Source: Rhizoclosmatium globosum (taxonomy: Eukaryota; Chytridiomycota; Chytridiomycetes; Chytridiales; Chytriomycetaceae). From it: DNA of 64,000 nt. The notes below the pieces were generated by a model. It did not search any database. It saw only the letters and a list, made by a program, of their open reading frames with translations, and had not been told where the DNA came from. Location of the stretch: positions 434,001 to 498,000 of the forward strand of contig MCGO01000004.1 in NCBI GenBank assembly GCA_002104985.1, in the 5' to 3' direction. This document shows positions 4,523 to 22,529 of the stretch, piece by piece; the first letter of the stretch is position 1, and every line of letters begins with the position of its first letter. The position numbers were made by a program, and so were the translations under genes.

Positions 4523-4669
4523 CTATACAAATTTCAACACTTTTTTGTTCAAAAAAGCAGAATGGTAGTAAAATTGTTATATCTGTATTTTTTGTAGTTA
4601 ACACAAAAAAAAAGCAAAAGAAAAAAGCATACATGTAAAAATAATTAGAATTATTTATAGGGAAAGAAA

Positions 4670-5330
4670 GGGGGAAATGTGTTTGTATTGTTAATCAGGA
4701 ATGTGTACAGGGCTGTTAAATGAAAGCTGCAGGTCAACCACCAGTATGATTACAGCAAGTGGCAAATCAAGTGGCAAATGTTGTATGCAGCTTGAATATC
4801 TTTGTCCACAATCTTAACAACAAGTGTTAGTGCTGGTACCATTTGCAAGCATACATACAGTAGGGGGTCCTGGAATGAGTGGGTACTCAACAAGACAATA
4901 AACTGAACTCTGGATGTTAGTAAGATCAGGGCATTGAACAAAGGGATGCATTGGTTGTTTGTCATCATCAATGCAGTATTTTCTCGAGTGAAGATCCTGA
5001 AACTTGTGTTTCTTGTGGGGGCATCTAAAAATAGGTACTTTGTTGATTACTTACTGTCACAACTGATGGATAATGATATACACCTCCTCCCTCATAACCA
5101 GCACTGAGGCGATTAACTTGTAGCTGCTGCTGCACATTTCCAGCATATCATTATACCTGCATTGGGAATAATTTGTCGACTGAATGGGGTTGGAAGATAC
5201 AAACAATGGTTGTGGGGGACTAAAGCTGAACATTGTGGCATAATTGGAGTTTTTTTTCAATTTAAATCTGTTTGCTGGAGTTGCCACTTGAGGAATGATG
5301 TTGATTGTATGTTCTTCCATGGACTAATTC
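4670..5330. mobile_element. Rearranged Fanzor fragment: RuvC-III end joined inverted to an exon-4 piece
   Basis: Reading the minus strand from about 5125 down to 4680 gives the last part of the Fanzor gene found complete at 14.87-17.88 kb: the RuvC-II flank, the short introns, the exon encoding IVDKDIQAAYNI and the 3' flank. From about 5126 to 5330 the plus strand carries a piece of exon 4 (AHIS-like region ending in VGRY and AEHCGIIG). The two pieces lie in opposite orientation and meet at the same point as in the fragment near 22.0 kb. In this copy the codon matching the in-frame TGA of the main copy is AAA. No intact frame remains, so it is a non-coding derivative. Confidence 0.8.
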
Positions 5331-6290
5331 TAAAGTGGCAACTCCAGCAAACAGATTCAACTCAAAAAAACAGTCCAATTATGCCACAATGTTCAGCTCA
5401 AGTCCCTCCACGACCATTGTATCTTCCAACCCCATTTGGTGGGCTAATTATTCCAAATGCAGGAACAATGATGTGCTGGAAATTTGCAGCAGCAGCTACA
5501 AGTGAAACGCCCCAAAAGGTCCCTCAGTTGTGGCATAAACTCAATATTGACATAGAACACAATAGTCTATTCCACAAAAGACTGCTTGAACCGTGGTGGC
5601 ATTGGTTGGAAGTGGTGCAAGAGGAAAACAAGCTTCACTTCCAAGGAGTGCCATCTCTGGGCAAATAAAACTGGTTCAATGGTAGTATGTTGAAATTAGC
5701 AAATGAAGGCTTGACAGATAAAAACTTACTCTCTGGTATAAGCCAAAATATTATTGCCCATTCTTGTCAAAGTGTGGGCCACGCTGAATGTTATTGAATG
5801 GCATGGCAACAAGAAACTGTCTGTGATGGAGAAGAAATGCAACAGTATCGTTGGTGACTACCTTAAATTGGCAATGAATCTGGGAGCAAGTGCATTTTCA
5901 GATTCTGTACGCAATTTTTTTTAGGCTTCAATGGCAATAACTTCCTCTCATTCAAAGTTGGGATAGTTAAAGAGGGGTTGGATAGGTTGTCCATTCTGAA
6001 AACCATTTTTGTCACAACTAACTCAATGGATGATGACAGTTTTGGAAGTTTCTAACAAGTAATGTCATGTGTGCTTGAAGGGCTGCACCAACTGGAACGA
6101 TGTAGGGCGTGCCAACAGGAAAGCCAGGAAGTACAAAATCAATTGGAAGTGGTGCGAATAATTATTGGTGAGCAGATTTCCAGAAGCATACTTGGGTGCA
6201 AATTGGAAGAAGGATTCTGAAAACTCAATATCAAAATGATTGTGCCATAATTTTAAGTCCCAATGAATTTAAACCATTTAATTGGGACAT
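5331..6290 (-). mobile_element. Truncated Fanzor copy (exons 2-4), inverted
   Basis: The minus strand from about 6290 to 5331 is a decayed copy of positions about 15.05-16.33 kb of the main Fanzor gene. Similarity begins inside intron 1 (the stretch matching CCCAATGAATTTAAAC) and runs through exons 2, 3 and 4 with internal deletions, for example around 5820-5900, where most of exon 3 is missing. At 5330-5340 it meets the neighbouring fragment head to head, forming a palindrome of exon-4 sequence. It shares with the main copy the TGA in place of a sense codon (rc of 5391-5410). Frameshifts and deletions show that it is not functional. Confidence 0.8.
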
Positions 6291-13948: not shown

Positions 13949-14553
13949 TTAGTTGAAAATCGAATTCCTGCGACCTTTCTCCGGAACCAGCCACAGGACC
14001 TAAACCAAACAGCGCACTGACTATAGGCACCTGCACACATCAAGCAACGTCGGAAACAATGGCCCATTAGTTATGGATGAATGAGGCAAAAAGGTCAAGT
14101 GATTGGAAGCTCTCAACAAGGTCAAACCTACCCTTAAATGCTCAATCTCAAATGCAACCAAACAAGAAACCAAAGCAGTCGCTCTTATGTGTGCCATTTC
14201 TTTGAAACTCTGTGGCCAGCAAGTCCGCTTACCGCCGAAGTTTGCTATAATGTATCAAGCAAAACTGCACCATCTCTCACACTCTCCAAGTCGAGCTCTA
14301 AGGAATTCAAAACGAGTTTCAATCATTAAATACTTGACAATACAATGACTTCTTTGTAATAGAGATGCCTTTGACACTTTTACTTCTTCTTTTCTTGTAT
14401 ATGCATTAATTATAGCAGAATAAAATAAATGAATGGCTAGCAGGAGCTGAGAACTAAAGAGCTAAGGTGGTTGTAAGTTGTTCTGTTCCGGTGTCAAAGA
14501 ATCCGATTGGCTCGCACATTAGCCATCTCCATTTTTTCGCGCGCGCGCGCAAT
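13949..14553. other. Intergenic DNA with a (GC)n tract
   Basis: No gene recognised. A run of alternating GC occupies about 14538-14550 just before the hairpin/T-run motif that precedes the tRNA-like sequence. Confidence 0.4.
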
Positions 14554-14596
14554 ATTATTTTCAGAGACGAAGAACATTCATCTTCGGTTTTTCTTT
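14554..14596 (+). repeat. Hairpin plus T-run motif, copy 1 of 2
   Basis: The sequence ATTATTTTCAGAGACGAAGA is followed by ACATTCATCTTC and a T-rich run. GAAGA and TCTTC can pair around a 7-nt loop. The same arrangement with a few substitutions occurs at 36371-36414. Here it lies about 20 bp upstream of the tRNA-like sequence. Function unknown; it may be the end of a small RNA gene or a shared promoter piece. Confidence 0.45.
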
Positions 14597-14618
14597 GCCG
14601 ATCTTGACCACATGTCAT

Positions 14619-14692
14619 GGGCGAATGGCCAAATGGTTACCGCGCTCGACTATGAATCAAGAGGTCCTAGGTTCGACCCCTGGTACAGATCC
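14619..14692 (+). tRNA. tRNA-like sequence (degenerate tRNA or tRNA-derived SINE head)
   Basis: An A-box-like TGGCCAAATGG (14626-14636) and a perfect B box GGTTCGACCCC (14670-14680) have tRNA spacing. The T arm folds as CTAGG/CCTGG around TTCGACC. An anticodon-like arm with loop CTATGAA would give anticodon AUG (His), but its stem has a mismatch. The flanking bases do not form a good acceptor stem. I therefore read it as a tRNA-derived element or decayed tRNA rather than a working gene. It lies about 180 bp upstream of the Fanzor start codon. Confidence 0.45.
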
Positions 14693-14869
14693 TGTTGCTG
14701 AGAGGAAGAAAGCCGGAAAAACTCCGGGTAAACCCCAACGGAAAATGAGATCGGATAAAAAAGATAACAGTGTGAAAATTGCATTCGAGAAAAAAACACG
14801 AGCCAACTGATGAGGCCTTGCCTCCTATCTATTCTTCTCATTCTTTTGGTCGCCACTTCTGTCATTCAT

Positions 14870-17800
14870 ATGGCTCAAAACAACTTCCATCGCACTCGCC
14901 ATGTTGGAGCAAGACAAGCTACTCGACCAGAACTACGTTGTGTAATGGGGCCACTCTTACAAGAGTTTGCAAGAAATGTGTCCCTCCTACGCTCCGATGC
15001 CATGCTTGCAATCAACCTTCACCTAGAGCGCAACCCAACTGGTATTTAACAGCTCAAATTAATATCGTTTAAATTCATTGGGACTTAAAATTAGGTCACG
15101 ATCATCTTGACATTGAGTTTTCAGAATCCTTCTTCCAATTTGCACTCAAGTATGCTTCTGGAAATCTGCTCGCCAATAATTATCATGCCCCACTTCCAAT
15201 TGGTTTTGTACTTCCTGGCAATCCTGTTGGCACACCCTACATCCTTCCAGTTGGTGCAGCCCTTCAGGCACACCAAAACACCCGCCGTTCTGTCACAAGA
15301 CATTACTTGTTGGAAACTTTCCAAAACTTTCATCATCCATTTAGTTGTGACAACAATGGTTTTCAGAATGGACAACCCATCCAACCTGGTCTTCGAATGG
15401 TTCCCCTCTTTAACTGTCCCAGCTATGAATGGGAGCAAGTTATTGCCATTGAAGCCAAACGATTGCGTACAGACTTTGAAAATGCACTTGCTCGCAGATT
15501 CATTGCCAATTTAGGCAAGCTGGCTGAGGAGGTTTGTTGATCTTGTCTGAAATTTACTTTAAATCTTACAACATAATTCAGGTTTTCAACTTTCATTGCT
15601 TCCTGCATGGATACCAACCTACCGCTGTTATCAAGGCAACTGCAAAGACAGCAATATACAATTACCTGACCCCACCATTTGGTGCCCCACTTGCACTTCC
15701 TGTAGCAGTTCCACAGGCAGTGACCAACAATATTGTTGCATTTCTTCTCCATCACAGACAGTTTCTTGTTGCCATGCCCTTCAATAACATTCAGCGTGGC
15801 CCACACTTTGAAATGAATCTTATTAGGGCAATGTCAAGAATGGGCAATAATATTTTGGCTTATACCAGAGAGTAAGTTTTTATCTGTCAAGCCTTCATTT
15901 GCTAATTTCAAACATACTACCATTGAAACAGTTTTATTCGCCCAGATATGGCACTCCTTGGAAGTGAAGCTTATTTTCCTCTTGCACCACTTCCAACCAA
16001 TGCTACCACGGCTCAAGCAGTCTTTTGTGGGATAGACTATCGTGTTCTATGTCAATATTTTATGCCACGACTGAGGGACCTTTTGGGGCCTCTTGCTGTT
16101 CCACTTCCTCAACCACCAGGTGGAGTTAACTTTCCACCTTCACTTGTAGCTGCTGCTGCAAATTTCCAGCACATCATTGTACCTGCATTGGGAATAATTA
16201 GCCCACCAAATGGGGTTGGAAGATACAATGGTCGTGGAGGGACTTGAGCTGAACATTGTGGCATAATTGGACTGTTTTTTCGAGTTGAATCTGTTCGCTG
16301 GAGTCGCCACTTGAGGAATGATGTTGATTGTATGTAAAACTTTATTGCATTGAATAATTCTAAAGGGCCCTAGCTTCATATTATCTTCAAACTGATGGCA
16401 GAAGCTTTTCATGGACTCTGAATACCAGACAAGCCTTTGTTCAGAACAATCTTGCAGCAAATGCCAACAGAGTTCCTCACAAAAGTTGGACTGATGATGC
16501 AAATTCACTCCCACAAAATTATAACTATAACCAATTCATGATAAATGGTCGTGGAATGGTGCGTGTGGATCATCACATAAACAATATGGGAATTGTGAAT
16601 CAAATTCAAGCTGGAATCTTGGATCCTCACAATGTTATTAGTGTTGACCCAGGTTTGATTTCTGTGTTTGGCTTACTAAATCAGCTTCTAATATTTATTT
16701 TACCTATTTAGGTATCAGGAATGTTGTAACTTGTGTCAATAGTGATATCCAGCTCCAAATCAACAATGCTGCTGTTGCTCCAGTTCCAGTACCTCCGCCT
16801 GCACATCCTCCATCACGACAGATTATTCATGACCACGTTGTTCAGGTTTCCCATGGTCATATGCGTCAAATCAATGGTTCTAAGCTCTCTGAAAAGAGGG
16901 AAGAGGTGTTCCGAGACAATGATCACCGCATCAACTTTGCATATGATGTCCTTGCTCAAAATTCTCCACGTGTTATTGGTCAACGTACACTGGGTCATTG
17001 GTGTCAATGGACCTGGATGGTCAAGCATTTCCAGTCAGAATTCTTGTTGCAAGAGTATTCTCGTCCCCAGCATCTAAAGTGGAAGCAGAGCAGTCGTATG
17101 AAACACCAGCGGGCTGAACAAGCTCTCATCAATCGTATGGCTGGGCGCATGACAGACACTGATTGGAACAGTATGCAAGGCAGGATTGTTCCTGGAGCAA
17201 GAAAACTCCGCCGTCGAACACGCCGCTTGAATAATATTCCAGCTTTTCCTGTTGCACCAGTCTATTTTGCTTATGGCGATGGATCTTGGAATCACCAGAG
17301 ACCATGGGCACCTGTTCCCAACAATGTCAGTTTAACGCAATGGTTGGCAATACTAAATATGTGTTTTTCACACAGAGAATCAGAGAAAAGGCTGCTCATG
17401 AGCACTTTGTGTTTGTTATTGATGAGCATTTGACTTCACAGCGGTCCCATCGTCTCAGTGCTGGCTATGAGGCAGGAGGTGTGTTCCAATATCCACCAGT
17501 TGTGACAGTAAGTAATCAACAAAGTAAGTCTTACATTAATGTTGGACTAGGTTCGACGTCCTATTCTTAGATGCCCCCACAAGAAACGCAAGTTTCAGGA
17601 TCTTCACTGGAGAAAATACTGCATTGATGATGACAAACAACCAATGCATCCCTTTGTTCAATGCCCTGATCTTACTAACATCCAGAGTTCAGTTTATGGT
17701 CTTGTTGAGTGCCCACTCATTCCAGGACCCCCTACTGTATGTATGCTTGTGACTGGTACCAGCACTAACATTTGTTGCTAAGATTGTGGACAAAGATATT

Positions 17801-17875
17801 CAAGCTGCATGCAACATTCGCCACTTGCTGTTTCATTACAATCATACTGGTGGTCGACCTGCAGCTTTCATTTAA
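14870..17875 (+). CDS. Fanzor-type (eukaryotic TnpB-like) RuvC nuclease, nearly intact, one in-frame TGA
   Basis: Nine exons join with consistent phases: 14870-15041, 15095-15531, 15582-15871, 15932-16329, 16374-16652, 16712-17325, 17376-17507, 17551-17736, 17783-17875. The frame has 866 codons before the final TAA. RuvC-I is VISVDPGIRNVV (Asp codon 16646-16648, split by an intron after DP). RuvC-II is FVFVIDEHLTSQ (Glu codon 17424-17426). Cys/His residues of a ribbon-like region follow (LRCPHKK, KYC, VQC, VEC). RuvC-III is IVDKDIQAACNI (Asp codon 17795-17797), then the terminal GGRPAAF. This order and wording match Fanzor proteins, RNA-guided DNA nucleases related to transposon TnpB. One TGA (16245-16247) interrupts exon 4; other copies have AAA or CAA there. 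The gene is therefore probably a recent pseudogene or carries a sequence error. An upstream in-frame ATG exists at 14810. Confidence 0.85.
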
Positions 17876-18027
17876 CAGCCCTGGATACATTCCTGATTAA
17901 CAATACAAAGAAATTTGGTATGGCCTTGCTTTCCTTATGGCATAATTCTAATTATTTTTTACAGGTATGTTTTTTTCTTTTACCTTTTGTTTTTTTTTAA
18001 TGTTCTTCTAAAATGTTAAATACAGTA
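17876..18027 (+). ncRNA. Conserved 3' flank of the Fanzor gene, candidate guide-RNA/right-end region
   Basis: About 150 bp after the stop codon are nearly identical to 22375-22529 downstream of the broken copy, and part is found inverted at 4680-4720. The similarity ends abruptly after AAATGTTAAATACAGTA in both places. Conservation of non-coding sequence to a shared boundary marks an element end. In Fanzor/TnpB systems the guide (omega) RNA is encoded at the 3' end of the gene and extends into the right end, so this is the natural candidate. No RNA structure has been tested. Confidence 0.45.
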
Positions 18028-20929
18028 CATGAGTTGTGATTCTTCTAAAATCACTCAAATCTTAACATATAATGAAAAATAAAAATCTTAAGAGCAATAT
18101 GCACCAATACAATGCCTATTTATTTGGAGGGACTTGTTTAAATACAAGATTGGTTAGCTTGGAACTGCCTGGAATGAGCGTATTTCCTCTTTCACTTGGC
18201 CAATGGCATTACTAATGTTTGAATAAGTAGCAAGCTTAGTTGAGAGAGACAGTTGCTTGGTAAGCAACAGAGTTGACATTATCCTTAGATATATCTCGCA
18301 GGTGTATCACATGCAGCCATCTCAGCAGGATGTCACATATGTCATAGCCTGTTAACTTTTGCAATGAATTGCGTCACTTTTGCATCAAGATGAGGCATTA
18401 TTCAGCAGTTATCGTTCGCCTTTTGAGTTTGTGGTCTTCAACATAAATAATACTATAATACCATGGTTCCTGTTGCAACTTAACTTGTGTGATTTCAGTA
18501 ATAGCTGTGAAAACCAGGTAGTTGTCAGCTATATTTTTACGAAAAACTTGAAGCACCATATGAATGGAAGTCTTTGTTCTCATGATGCGAAGCCTCATGG
18601 CTGATTATTCTATCAGCTGGATTTCAAGGCGGCGGACTTAATTGATAAAAATAGAATATACAGTAAGCTGTCTGTTTCTCCCCACACAAAAGCCACAGAA
18701 CAAGTGGGTGATTAGCCATCCTGAGACCCAACCAAATTTATATTATTGAATTTACATTATTCTTGCATGGTTGAACTTGTGCGAAGAAAAGTGCTGTCTC
18801 GTTTTTACAATCTGGATGGTTACAGATTTTCTCCTATTGCTGATAATCCGGGTCTTCAAGAGGCATGGCCAACAAAAGAAGAAAGTCATCATGATCAAGA
18901 GAATGGACATTGTTCAATAGTTATTGCACCATAAGCTTTGGGACCCAAGCAGTGAATCATACAATAAATTTGTCGTAGAGAAGCCATGGCTGCTGTTGCA
19001 CTCAGTGAATATCTGTGCTATCTGTGTTAAGAGTCAACAGTCTTTCAATGCCCACAACCCTTTCATATAGAACTAATACGCAATGTTCAAATCAGAAACT
19101 GGAAAATACTTTAAACAAGAAAAAACCAACAGCGTAACAAGAGATCCATCCAAAGTGAGTAGTTTTGCATTCTCTACTTTTTTTTTGAATTGCACTTGGA
19201 GGATTCCAACCTTTTGATAAGTTCAGTTATTTAACACAGCCAATCAAGTCAACAAAACCTACCAGATGAAGTCCACGTAATATTCGCAGCAAGTTCAACT
19301 TGCTGGAAGTCTGGTAACCCAACTCCAACCCTCCTCTACTCACCATTCTTATTTTTGTTCTTGTCAAGGAAAAGTCAAACATATTGGCAGAGTCCCAAGA
19401 CATTGTCACCATACTATTTTGAGAGCCACTGTTAACAAAAAACTATTCTAAAAACTGCACCTTGAAATGGGCACTTGTTCCTGCAACAGAGAGCAGCTTG
19501 ACATCTTGAAATTGCCAGGGATATTTTTGAGAATGCTCCTCTCAAGGTTCACTTTAAATGTCAAAGACATCTTAGTCAAGCCAGCAATATTATCAGCCAT
19601 AACTACATCACCAATAGCACCGAGGCCCTTATCTTTTTCATTCAAACTTTTTTTGAATTGGATGATACTTTGAAAGAACTGTTCGAAGGGCCAGGGCAAC
19701 ATCTTCAGAATACACGTTCATGACCAAAATATGATTGAGCTCCTCCAAGAACAGATATGGACAGATATGTTGAAAACACATTGCAATCTCTGAAAGAATA
19801 TTTCTTCCTTTTTGAGTTGTTTTCAAGAGCTTTAATTGACTGTGACAATTTTGTTGCTGCATGAATCAAAGACTCACCACCAGAAACTACCTTTGTTAGC
19901 ATCTTCACTGGATCCTCATTAATCAAGTGCAAATAGTAATAATAATTATAAGAATAAAGATTGGTGGTAAACGTTTATATCTTGGATGTACGTCTGTATA
20001 AACATTCAGCTACATATGCTCCCAATACTGCTTGCTGTCCTTGTTCTTTCATGTTTTGTTGCTGCATCAGGGCAGGGGTGGCCATTTTCATCAATATTGG
20101 GACGTACAATGTTGGGGCAATCATCTTCTGACTGTGGTGTTGCAGACAGTTGAATCCTTCTGGAACCACTCTGTCCCAACCAGTGTCCCTGTATTGTGAC
20201 TGGTGCAGATTATACAATCACACTGCTTCTGTTTGTGATCATAATAGTTTCTTGTATCTGCTTTCCCCACTCACAACAACGTTGCCTCCACTACAAACAC
20301 GAAATGGCTGAAATGAGCACTCTTATAACCTTGCCACCCATCCAAACTGTTTTCGAATCAGCTTCCCTCATTGCTATTATCAATGCCGCCTTTTTATCAG
20401 ATCCTTCCCATCCCTTAGCCACATCTGGATTGCCATGTTGCAGGTAATACTGCAGCACCTACTGGGCCACAAGATCGAGAAGAACGGTTTCAGCCATTAA
20501 GTAAGCCAAGGTACTGATGTTAAAATTGACAGGCAGCCAAGACAGTAACAACAGTGGAGGGCTGTTAAGACTGCAGCAATTAGTTTTGATGTGGTGTTGC
20601 TGCTCACATCAAGGAAAACACATTGTGTGTGATCCTATGACTCCTGCTGTTGTCAACTTGAGAAACGTGCTTTGGATATTAGTATTGAGGTCGGAACTCC
20701 CAGGTTCCAATAAATATTTTTCATTAAAGAGAAAATATTGGAATTTGTTCCAGCATTGCCACAAACAATTGCCACCTCTGTCGGTTGCTTTCAAATTGAG
20801 AAATAGCAGACTTGCTCAGAGGCCATTGATCGTCCATCAACAGATGCAGCAGCCTGTGCAACTGCCATGCAATATGATAATCAAACCAAAGACAACATTT
20901 CAAAATTTCCAATGGGTACAGCAATCCAC
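18028..20929. other. Accessory DNA with broken unrecognised frames
   Basis: Minus-strand frames at 20217-19975, 19932-19705, 19862-19638 and 19702-19448 look protein-like and may be parts of one decayed gene (for example GLGAIGDVVMADNIAGLTKM near 19610). A plus frame at 18770-18934 (LSRFYNLDGYRFSPIADNPG) also looks coding. None belongs to a family I recognise, and frame changes without introns suggest decay. No tRNA, CRISPR-like or inverted-repeat structure was found. Confidence 0.35.
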
Positions 20930-22529
20930 CTAAAATGGCTTGACCGCAGAGTTTTCTTTCTCCTGAAACAATCCTGCCTTCCAATCAGTGTCTGTCATGC
21001 ACCCAGCCATACAATTGATGAGAGCTTGTTCATCCCACTGGTGTTGCTGCTTCTACTTTAGATGTTGGGGACAAGAATACTCTTGCAAAAAGAATTCTGA
21101 CTGGAAATGCTTGACCATCCAGGTACTTCCATTGACACCAATGACCCATTGTATGTTGACCAATAACACATGGAGAATTTTGAGTAAGGACATCATCATA
21201 TGCAAAGTTGATGTGATGATCATTGTCTTGGAACACTCTTCCCTCTTTTCAGAGAGCTTAGAACCATTGATTTGATGCATATGGCTATGGGAAGCCTGAG
21301 CAATGTCGTCATATATAGTCTGTTGTGATGGAGAATGTGAAGGCGGAGGTACTGGAACTGGAACAACAGCAGCATTGTTGATTTGGAGCTGGATATCACT
21401 ATTGACACAAGTTACAACATTCCTGATACCTAAATAGGTAAAAAAAATATTAGAAGCTGATTTAGTAAGCCAAACACAGAGATCAAACCTGGGTCAACAC
21501 TAATAACATTGTGAGGATTCAAGATTCCAGCTTGAATTTGATTCATAATTCCCATATTGTTTATGTGATGATCCACACACACCATTCCACGATCATTTAT
21601 CTTAAATTGGTTATAGTTATAATTTTGTTGGAGTGAATTTGCATCATCAGTCCAACTTTTGTGAGGAACTCTGTTGGCATTTGCTACAAGATTGTTCTGA
21701 ACAAAGTATTCAGAGTCCATGAAAAGCTTCTGCCTTCAGTTTGAAGCTAATATCAAGCTAGAGCCCTTTAGAATTAGTCCATGGAAGAACATACAATCAA
21801 CATCATTCCTCAAGTGGCAACTCCAGCAACAGATTTAAATTGAACAAAACTCCAATTATGCCACAATGTTCAGCTTGAGTCCCCCACAACCATTGTTTGT
21901 ACCCCATTCAGTGGACAAATTATTCCCAATGCAGGTATAATGATATGCTGGAAATGTGCAGCAGCAGCTACAAGTTAATCGCCTCAGTGCTGGTTATGTG
22001 GGAGGAGGTGTATTCCATTATCCATCAGTTGTGACAGTAAGTAATCAACAAAGTAAGTCTTAAATTAATGTTGGACTAGGTTTGACGTCCTATTTTTAGA
22101 TGCCCCCACAAGAAACACAAGTTTCAGGATCTTCACTCGAGAAAATACTGCATTGATGATGACAAACAACCAATGCATCCCTTTGTTCAATGCCCTGATC
22201 TTACTAACATCCAGAGTTCAGTTTATTGTCTTGTTGAGTGCCCACTCATTCCAGGACCCCCTTCTGTATGTATGCTTGCAAATGGTACCAGCACTAACAC
22301 TTGTTGTTAAGATTGTGGACAAAGATATTCAAGCTGCATGTAACATTTGCCACTTGCTGTTTCATTACATTTAACAGCCCTGGATACATTCTTGATTAAC
22401 AATACAAAGAAATTTGGTATGGCCTTGCTTTCCTTATGGCATAATTCTAATTATTTTTTACAGGTATGTTTTTTTCTTTTACCTTTTGTGTTTTTTTAAT
22501 GTTCTTCTAAAATGTTAAATACAGTAAAA
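20930..22529. mobile_element. Rearranged Fanzor copy (minus then plus orientation)
   Basis: From about 21975 down to 20930 the minus strand matches the main Fanzor gene from late exon 4 through exon 6. It includes the region NANRVPHKSWTDDANS and the RuvC-I block, then breaks off after a MEGRIVSGERKL-like segment (exon 6), where unrelated sequence begins. From about 21978 to 22529 the plus strand carries the C-terminal part: the RuvC-II flank, the exon with IVDKDIQAACNI and the 3' flank to the shared boundary. The central switch of orientation is the same as in the fragment at 4.7-5.3 kb. The codon at the TGA site is CAA here. It cannot encode a nuclease as it stands. Confidence 0.8.

Follow-up and report, generated by a model that had tools for sequence, protein, structure and literature searches.

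A Fanzor-type gene in a TA-flanked multicopy element of the chytrid Rhizoclosmatium globosum, with predicted cutting next to CCTA and a stop-broken copy in the window

The closest described element

Spizellomyces punctatus, a chytrid, hosts the described element that most closely resembles the one reported here. This element, SPu-1, was reported with putative TA duplications and 33-bp repeats (excerpt of PMC3627910). PMC10432273 adds that CA is conserved ahead of the left repeat, in ghost elements as well, that the RNAs reach 14-15 nt beyond the conserved part of the right end, and that the TAM of its nuclease, SpuFz1, was measured as CATA. In Fanzor1s at large, the repeats and the duplicated target letters are predicted to be part of the RNA scaffold (PMC10711439, in part). 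The biological role of Fanzors is described as unknown in the discussion of PMC10432273.

The stretch analysed here, called the window, spans 64,000 nt of Rhizoclosmatium globosum (assembly GCA_002104985.1, contig MCGO01000004.1, positions 434,001 to 498,000, forward strand). It holds a Fanzor-type gene in a TA-flanked 3.5-kb element with at least 18 copies, for which we predict cutting next to CCTA guided by a right-end RNA, the window copy being broken by a stop codon; the probability of this reading as a whole is put at about 0.8. As far as the excerpts of the sources describe it, the Fanzor1 system SpuFz1/SPu-1 is alike in its fungal host, in being a TA-flanked terminal-repeat element that encodes only Fanzor, in ghost elements that retain the right-end region, in a D-E-D active site and in a fixed dinucleotide before the left TA (CA in SpuFz1/SPu-1, CC in R. 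globosum). The two differ in gene architecture: a single ORF encodes SpuFz1, a protein of 633 aa whose zinc finger is CCCC, whereas the R. globosum gene has nine exons and 866 codons and has lost the ribbon cysteines. The R. globosum element also differs in its predicted TAM (CCTA instead of CATA) and in a tRNA-derived leader. A literature search pairing Fanzor with Rhizoclosmatium or Chytridiomycota returned no paper; supplementary tables, which may already list R. globosum Fanzors, were outside its scope.

Table 1. Features of the Fanzor-type element and related loci (window coordinates unless a contig is named)
Feature	Position	Strand	Remark
Exon 1	14870..15041	+	ATG at 14870; alternative upstream ATG 14810 used in P0001
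Exon 2	15095..15531	+	
Exon 3	15582..15871	+	
Exon 4	15932..16329	+	contains in-frame TGA, codon 405, 16245-16247
Exon 5	16374..16652	+	RuvC-I aspartate D524 at 16646-16648 (SVDPG)
Exon 6	16712..17325	+	
Exon 7	17376..17507	+	RuvC-II glutamate E747 at 17424-17426 (VIDEHLTSQR), six residues before zinc-ribbon position
Exon 8	17551..17736	+	ribbon region, degenerate (LRCPHK...)
Exon 9	17783..17875	+	RuvC-III aspartate D841 at 17795-17797 (VDKDIQAACNI); stop TAA
Fanzor-bearing transposable element, window copy	14553..18025	+	shared sequence versus other copies; left junction atypical
Left terminal inverted repeat	14553..14579	+	27 bp in usual copies, imperfect
Right terminal inverted repeat	17999..18025	-	27 bp
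Terminal TA (target-site duplication)	18026..18027	+	CAGTA at 18/18 right ends
Right-end segment common with non-autonomous composite elements (91-94%)	17826..18027	+	predicted to contain the guide-RNA scaffold, placement inferred from SpuFz1
Right flank, predicted guide region of the window copy's RNA	18028..18042	+	inferred from SpuFz1
Degenerate tRNA-Arg(ACG)-derived sequence, 5' leader	14619..14690	+	A- and B-box-like motifs kept
Rearranged relative	20979..22526		internal piece, inverted, fused to a right end on the plus strand (CAGTA at 22526)
Older broken relative	4598..6283		mainly minus strand; inverted duplication around 5113-5506
Second Fanzor-like family	L159 (C413:86500-89900), C63:48877, C179:265604, C256:18315, C89:36922		

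Gene structure and the interrupted window copy

An earlier note, made from the letters of the window alone, had proposed nine GT..AG exons in matching phase. Joining these exons gives 866 codons and a stop (2601 nt) across eight introns of 43-60 nt, all GT..AG, and the spliced product carries the motifs that the note had listed (SVDPGIRN, VIDEHLTSQ, VDKDIQAA and the closing GGRPAAF). The sole close protein is the hypothetical protein BCR33DRAFT_848342 of R. globosum (P0001; 98% over 84%), which is the public gene model of the copy on contig C24. Its junctions are identical at introns 1-5; the C24 copy is devoid of 17311-17943, so that introns 6-8 lie beyond what P0001 can tell. A first choice of intron 4 (16334-16401) was dropped for that of P0001 (16330-16373), which yields the 866 codons. 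The 858-codon version with the first intron is eight residues shorter before RuvC-I, with residue numbers eight lower from there on, and served as query in the profile, PDB, protein-database and TnpB-alignment searches and in the search for exon-6 copies. Translation could start at the ATG that opens exon 1 or, as in P0001, 20 codons farther upstream. The nine-exon gene, with a structure read from sequence, is real; the retention of splice sites and open frame in five other full-length copies exceeds what chance would give.

An in-frame TGA, absent from the account in the earlier note, occupies codon 405 of the window copy, so that the 866 residues are not encoded in one piece here. No stop occurs there in the other copies (17/17). 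A possible intron concealing the TGA was ruled out, as P0001 reads through the stretch and those 17 copies are free of the stop; the TGA is thus a nonsense mutation of the window copy. The nine-exon frame check took in five other full-length copies (L036-L040), the remaining ones having been fetched in part, and all five are open through the nine exons with every splice site kept. Given these five open copies, the window copy is read as a single-nonsense pseudogene of a family with intact members. The description of the gene as near-complete is thus fair for the element and fails for its coding capacity.

A probable Fanzor-type RuvC nuclease variant

Curated profiles (Pfam, NCBIfam) gave no TnpB or Fanzor model over cut-off for the protein, and no NCBIfam family. 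With the whole protein, one Pfam family appeared at E<=1, OrfB_IS605 (E 0.72, at RuvC-I). The C-terminal half matched the same family (PF01385) at RuvC-I with E 0.23, and the last 136 residues alone matched Cas12f1-like_TNB (PF07282) at RuvC-II with E 0.088, both below cut-off. These two TnpB families, both weak, are the only Pfam families listed at E<=10, in a listing from which HMMER filters already discard most weak matches. The profile search by which the earlier note had wanted its Fanzor gene checked therefore brought no significant Fanzor/TnpB match, 0.088 and 0.23 being the best E values. A sequence search of the PDB matched no Fanzor, its sole match being an unrelated uridine ribohydrolase (E 0.049), and a second search gave none. 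In a word-based search of ∼5.8 billion proteins (7995 and 3669 candidates scored), P0001 was the only homologue.

The catalytic residues emerge from alignment with prokaryotic TnpBs. A motif pattern selected 79 IMG/VR stretches, which gave 64 ORFs with the alternative glutamate, and the 61 of 300-600 aa formed the profile against which the C-terminal 418 residues were aligned. Its three top-scoring blocks correspond to RuvC-I, II and III, and D524, E747 and D841 fall on the catalytic columns in that order, E747 on the Ealt column. Three collinear catalytic blocks occurred in 0/400 shuffles and in 0/81 open frames of the window (>=120 codons, many of them not genes); two blocks occurred in 2/400 and 1/81, respectively, and the reversed sequence gave one. 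No control matched the summed three-block score, and the best single-block score was equalled in 2/400 shuffles. As the TnpBs were picked for the alternative glutamate, the alignment indicates agreement with that group and makes no choice between groups. All three catalytic blocks are thus shared with these TnpBs, from which the R. globosum protein differs in its DPG motif (DLG in 55 of the 64 ORFs, DPG in none), while 61 of the 64 ORFs measure 300-600 aa and their zinc ribbon is intact, as the pattern that selected them required.

It is very improbable that the motifs are chance matches in a transposon protein of another type, with no nuclease at all. That P0001 is the sole homologue among so many proteins would suit such an origin, as would single-block scores this high in 2/400 shuffles. 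Against it stand the absence of three collinear catalytic blocks from all 481 controls, the two TnpB families as the only Pfam families listed, and the combination of DPG and a glutamate placed six residues ahead of the ribbon site.

This last combination is named as the molecular fingerprint of Fanzors in PMC10711439. The protein has the DPG at D524 (SVDPGIRN) and the alternative RuvC-II glutamate at the exact spacing of six residues before the zinc-finger position (E-HLTSQR-SxxL), the finger itself being degenerate. Its DPG-to-E distance of 222 residues is longer than the 120-160 spanned by the published regular expression for Fanzor searches (PMC10711439, excerpt). The Fanzor motif of Bao and Jurka comprises D-X(125,275)-[TS]-[TS], a C4 zinc finger and RD (PMC3627910, excerpt). 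The spacing from D524 to TS, 225 residues, lies within this range. At RuvC-III, VDKDIQAACNI with D841 aligns to HDRDVNAAKNI, K replacing R, so that KD stands in place of a literal RD. No C4 zinc ribbon was found: SHRL and CPHK stand where CxxC/CxxC would be expected, and the Cys/His ribbon announced in the earlier note is hence not a canonical C4. In two diverged copies reaching this site the letters are SHRL and SHHL, and C4 is absent from every copy read there. Diverged copies gave no sign of codon-position bias and thus do not demonstrate purifying selection.

Since the D-to-TS spacing fits, C4 fails and RD reads KD, the protein is called a Fanzor-type variant. The evidence supports a Fanzor-type RuvC nuclease that is not a textbook Fanzor, its nuclease function being predicted. 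The original designation as a Fanzor gene holds as to the catalytic alignment with its controls and the DPG/Ealt fingerprint, and lacks a curated profile over cut-off. The loss of the ribbon cysteines and the same lack of a profile match would also fit a decayed or repurposed TnpB relative devoid of nuclease activity, for example a transposon DNA-binding factor. Such a fate is judged distinctly unlikely: the three acidic residues are in place, all five other full-length copies are open, and a zinc finger is present in 'many', not all, Fanzors according to the excerpt of PMC10711439.

A second, unrelated Fanzor-like family in the genome is marked by VDEFKST..., CHHCGTMWDRDRNAARNI and a long acidic insert. 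Positions 368-387 of the 389 of NF040570 match its five loci at E 0.038, below cut-off. P0002 of Rhizoclosmatium sp. JEL0117 is a 97% relative (PF07282 at E 3e-4, below cut-off).

Extent and ends of the element

Five full-length copies match window positions 14553-18027 at 99.05-99.71% over ∼3475 nt (blastn), and the C24 copy does so at 99.6% outside its internal deletion. A genome search with exon 6 found matches of 97-100% in at least 18 places of R. globosum, window included. The earlier suspicion of a mobile family with several relatives is borne out by these dispersed, closely similar copies and their differing flanks. TA stands at both ends in 17/18 copies and at the right end only in the window copy; beyond the common right end the flanks are unrelated. 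The terminal repeats share 17/27 ungapped matches and have one 10-mer in common, GAAGAACATT, which is equally offset in both ends; their gapped local score is reached by 0.9% of base shuffles. RNA of the right end folds no better than shuffles (z -0.29, 0.20 and 0.76), and hence no RNA scaffold is visible there. A possible 3' UTR intron, seen by eye at 17918-17964 (TTTG/GTATGG...TTTTTTACAG, the stroke marking the splice), would remove part of the presumed scaffold. Both broken relatives in the window contain inverted pieces of the element.

CCTA at the left junction

The left junction reads host-CCTA in 17/18 copies, followed by CTATTATTTTCAGAG in 14 and by a near form in three. CC precedes TA at 183 of the 5945 TA sites of the window (both strands), and GG follows the right end in 0/18 copies. 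These 18 copies belong to a set of 32 right-end matches, of which another four are three composites and a mini-element, and ten have an unreadable left junction. The latter (C201:114560, C334:456375, C367:178605, C155, C367:237979, C334:438598, C356, C112, C367:177051 and C135) are rearranged, truncated or only partly fetched; a copy at C367:122k with an insertion of ∼218 bp in its left leader was kept in the count. At the window copy the junction (14540-14560) reads GCGCAATATTATTTT, with a CG repeat at the site. The window copy is the sole one of the 18 without CCTA on the left, which counts against the CCTA reading, and also the sole one with the codon-405 stop.

Non-autonomous relatives distinguish the two ends. 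The composites (C235, C157 and C391; 826-833 bp) have only their last 202 bp (91-94%) in common with the Fanzor element and a different left end, and follow CCTA in 3/3 cases. A 69-bp mini-element (L166, C360:57021-57089), with little beyond two terminal repeats, is also preceded by CCTA and ends in CAGAA. Related stand-alone MITEs without the Fanzor right end follow TTTA (four) or CTTA (one), hence CC in 0/5; TA flanks four of them on either side, and the right end of the fifth is rearranged. A Fisher test of CCTA in 20/21 versus 0/5, the mini-element not yet included, gives 9e-5. In small numbers, CCTA is thus shown to go with the right end and not with the left terminal repeat.

One copy offers a trace of the empty site. 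The left flank of the C374 copy is a 73-nt tandem repeat whose first unit is uninterrupted (AACCTATCA) and whose second reads CCTA[element]TCA, the trace covering just 3 nt on the right side. Because of this empty unit, the 3/3 composites, the mini-element and the 0/5 MITEs, CCTA is read as belonging to the target and not to the element. Three of the 17 CCTA copies have a left end that starts with deviant bases, and in each of them these bases repeat the start of the right flank (G, T and CATATATT), over up to 8 nt; in the 14 standard copies such agreement is neither needed nor generally seen. The deviant bases look like target-derived sequence retained at the junction.

CCTA is likely to be the TAM, as predicted by analogy with SpuFz1. 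The TAMs of other Fanzor1s differ (PMC11423790, excerpt), and the motif would be consistent with such TAM diversity.

Transposases may favour sequences around TA. On these grounds the CC could reflect an insertion preference of the transposase, Fanzor having no role in the placement of copies. We consider this unlikely. The preference falls on one side only and keeps its place with respect to the Fanzor right end (CC on the left in 17/18, GG on the right in 0/18), and MITEs with a related left repeat lack it (0/5) whereas composites with the Fanzor right end have it (3/3), the numbers being small and the two MITE groups compared being only 76-83% alike.

Transposase and proposed mechanism

The DDE_3 profile search found no DDE transposase inside the element; its 19 matches in the genome all lie outside the window. 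At one locus (L165, C360:50902-52315), a stretch resembles the Fanzor leader and exon 1 at 79% over 421 aligned columns, and ∼560 nt downstream of this Fanzor 5' end lies a decayed DDE_3 domain that points the same way. This single locus links the element to Tc1/mariner-type transposases. An autonomous partner was sought through the terminal 14-mer, and none was found among its 25 exact sites, 24 of which are already-known right ends; the 25th, on C290, shares just the 14-mer. With Tc1/mariner elements and MITEs, the R. globosum element has in common the TA target duplication, putative short, imperfect terminal repeats and the DDE_3 relic by a Fanzor 5' end; it differs from Tc1/mariner in being without an internal transposase and in its one-sided CC requirement.

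The following course of events is proposed. A Tc1/mariner-like transposase acting in trans would move the element at TA. The Fanzor RNA would take its scaffold from the right end, terminal TA included, and its guide from the right flank. CCTA together with the guide sequence constitutes the empty site, left after excision or present on the homologous chromosome, which Fanzor would recognise and cut, and repair off the element-bearing copy would restore or spread the element. If cutting and repair restore the element in this manner, insertions behind CCTA would be those kept. Put more sharply, the transposase might insert at any TA and the zinc-ribbon-less Fanzor keep or spread only CCTA insertions, the target-derived left bases being repair scars; this version is tentative, and we hold it to be possible rather than probable.

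If true, the genome would display Fanzor-permitted insertions and amount to a natural experiment in eukaryotic RNA-guided homing. The many closely similar young copies, a TAM that can be inferred from junctions, and relatives with and without the right end, which serve as internal control, open the retention or homing hypothesis to direct tests in a chytrid. What the zinc ribbon is for could moreover be probed with a Fanzor that has none.

A tRNA-derived leader

The 5' leader contains a degenerate tRNA-like sequence in sense orientation (Table 1), which Rfam tRNA matches at 14625-14684 with 25.8 bits, short of the cut-off of 29 bits. Six copies were compared with the window over 84 nt of this sequence and differ from it at 1-2 positions. 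Similar loci exist in the genome at 86-90%, and those fetched (5/5) are intact tRNA-Arg(acg) genes, so that an interpretation of the leader as a SINE was rejected. The tRNA-like leader could be a candidate internal Pol III promoter.
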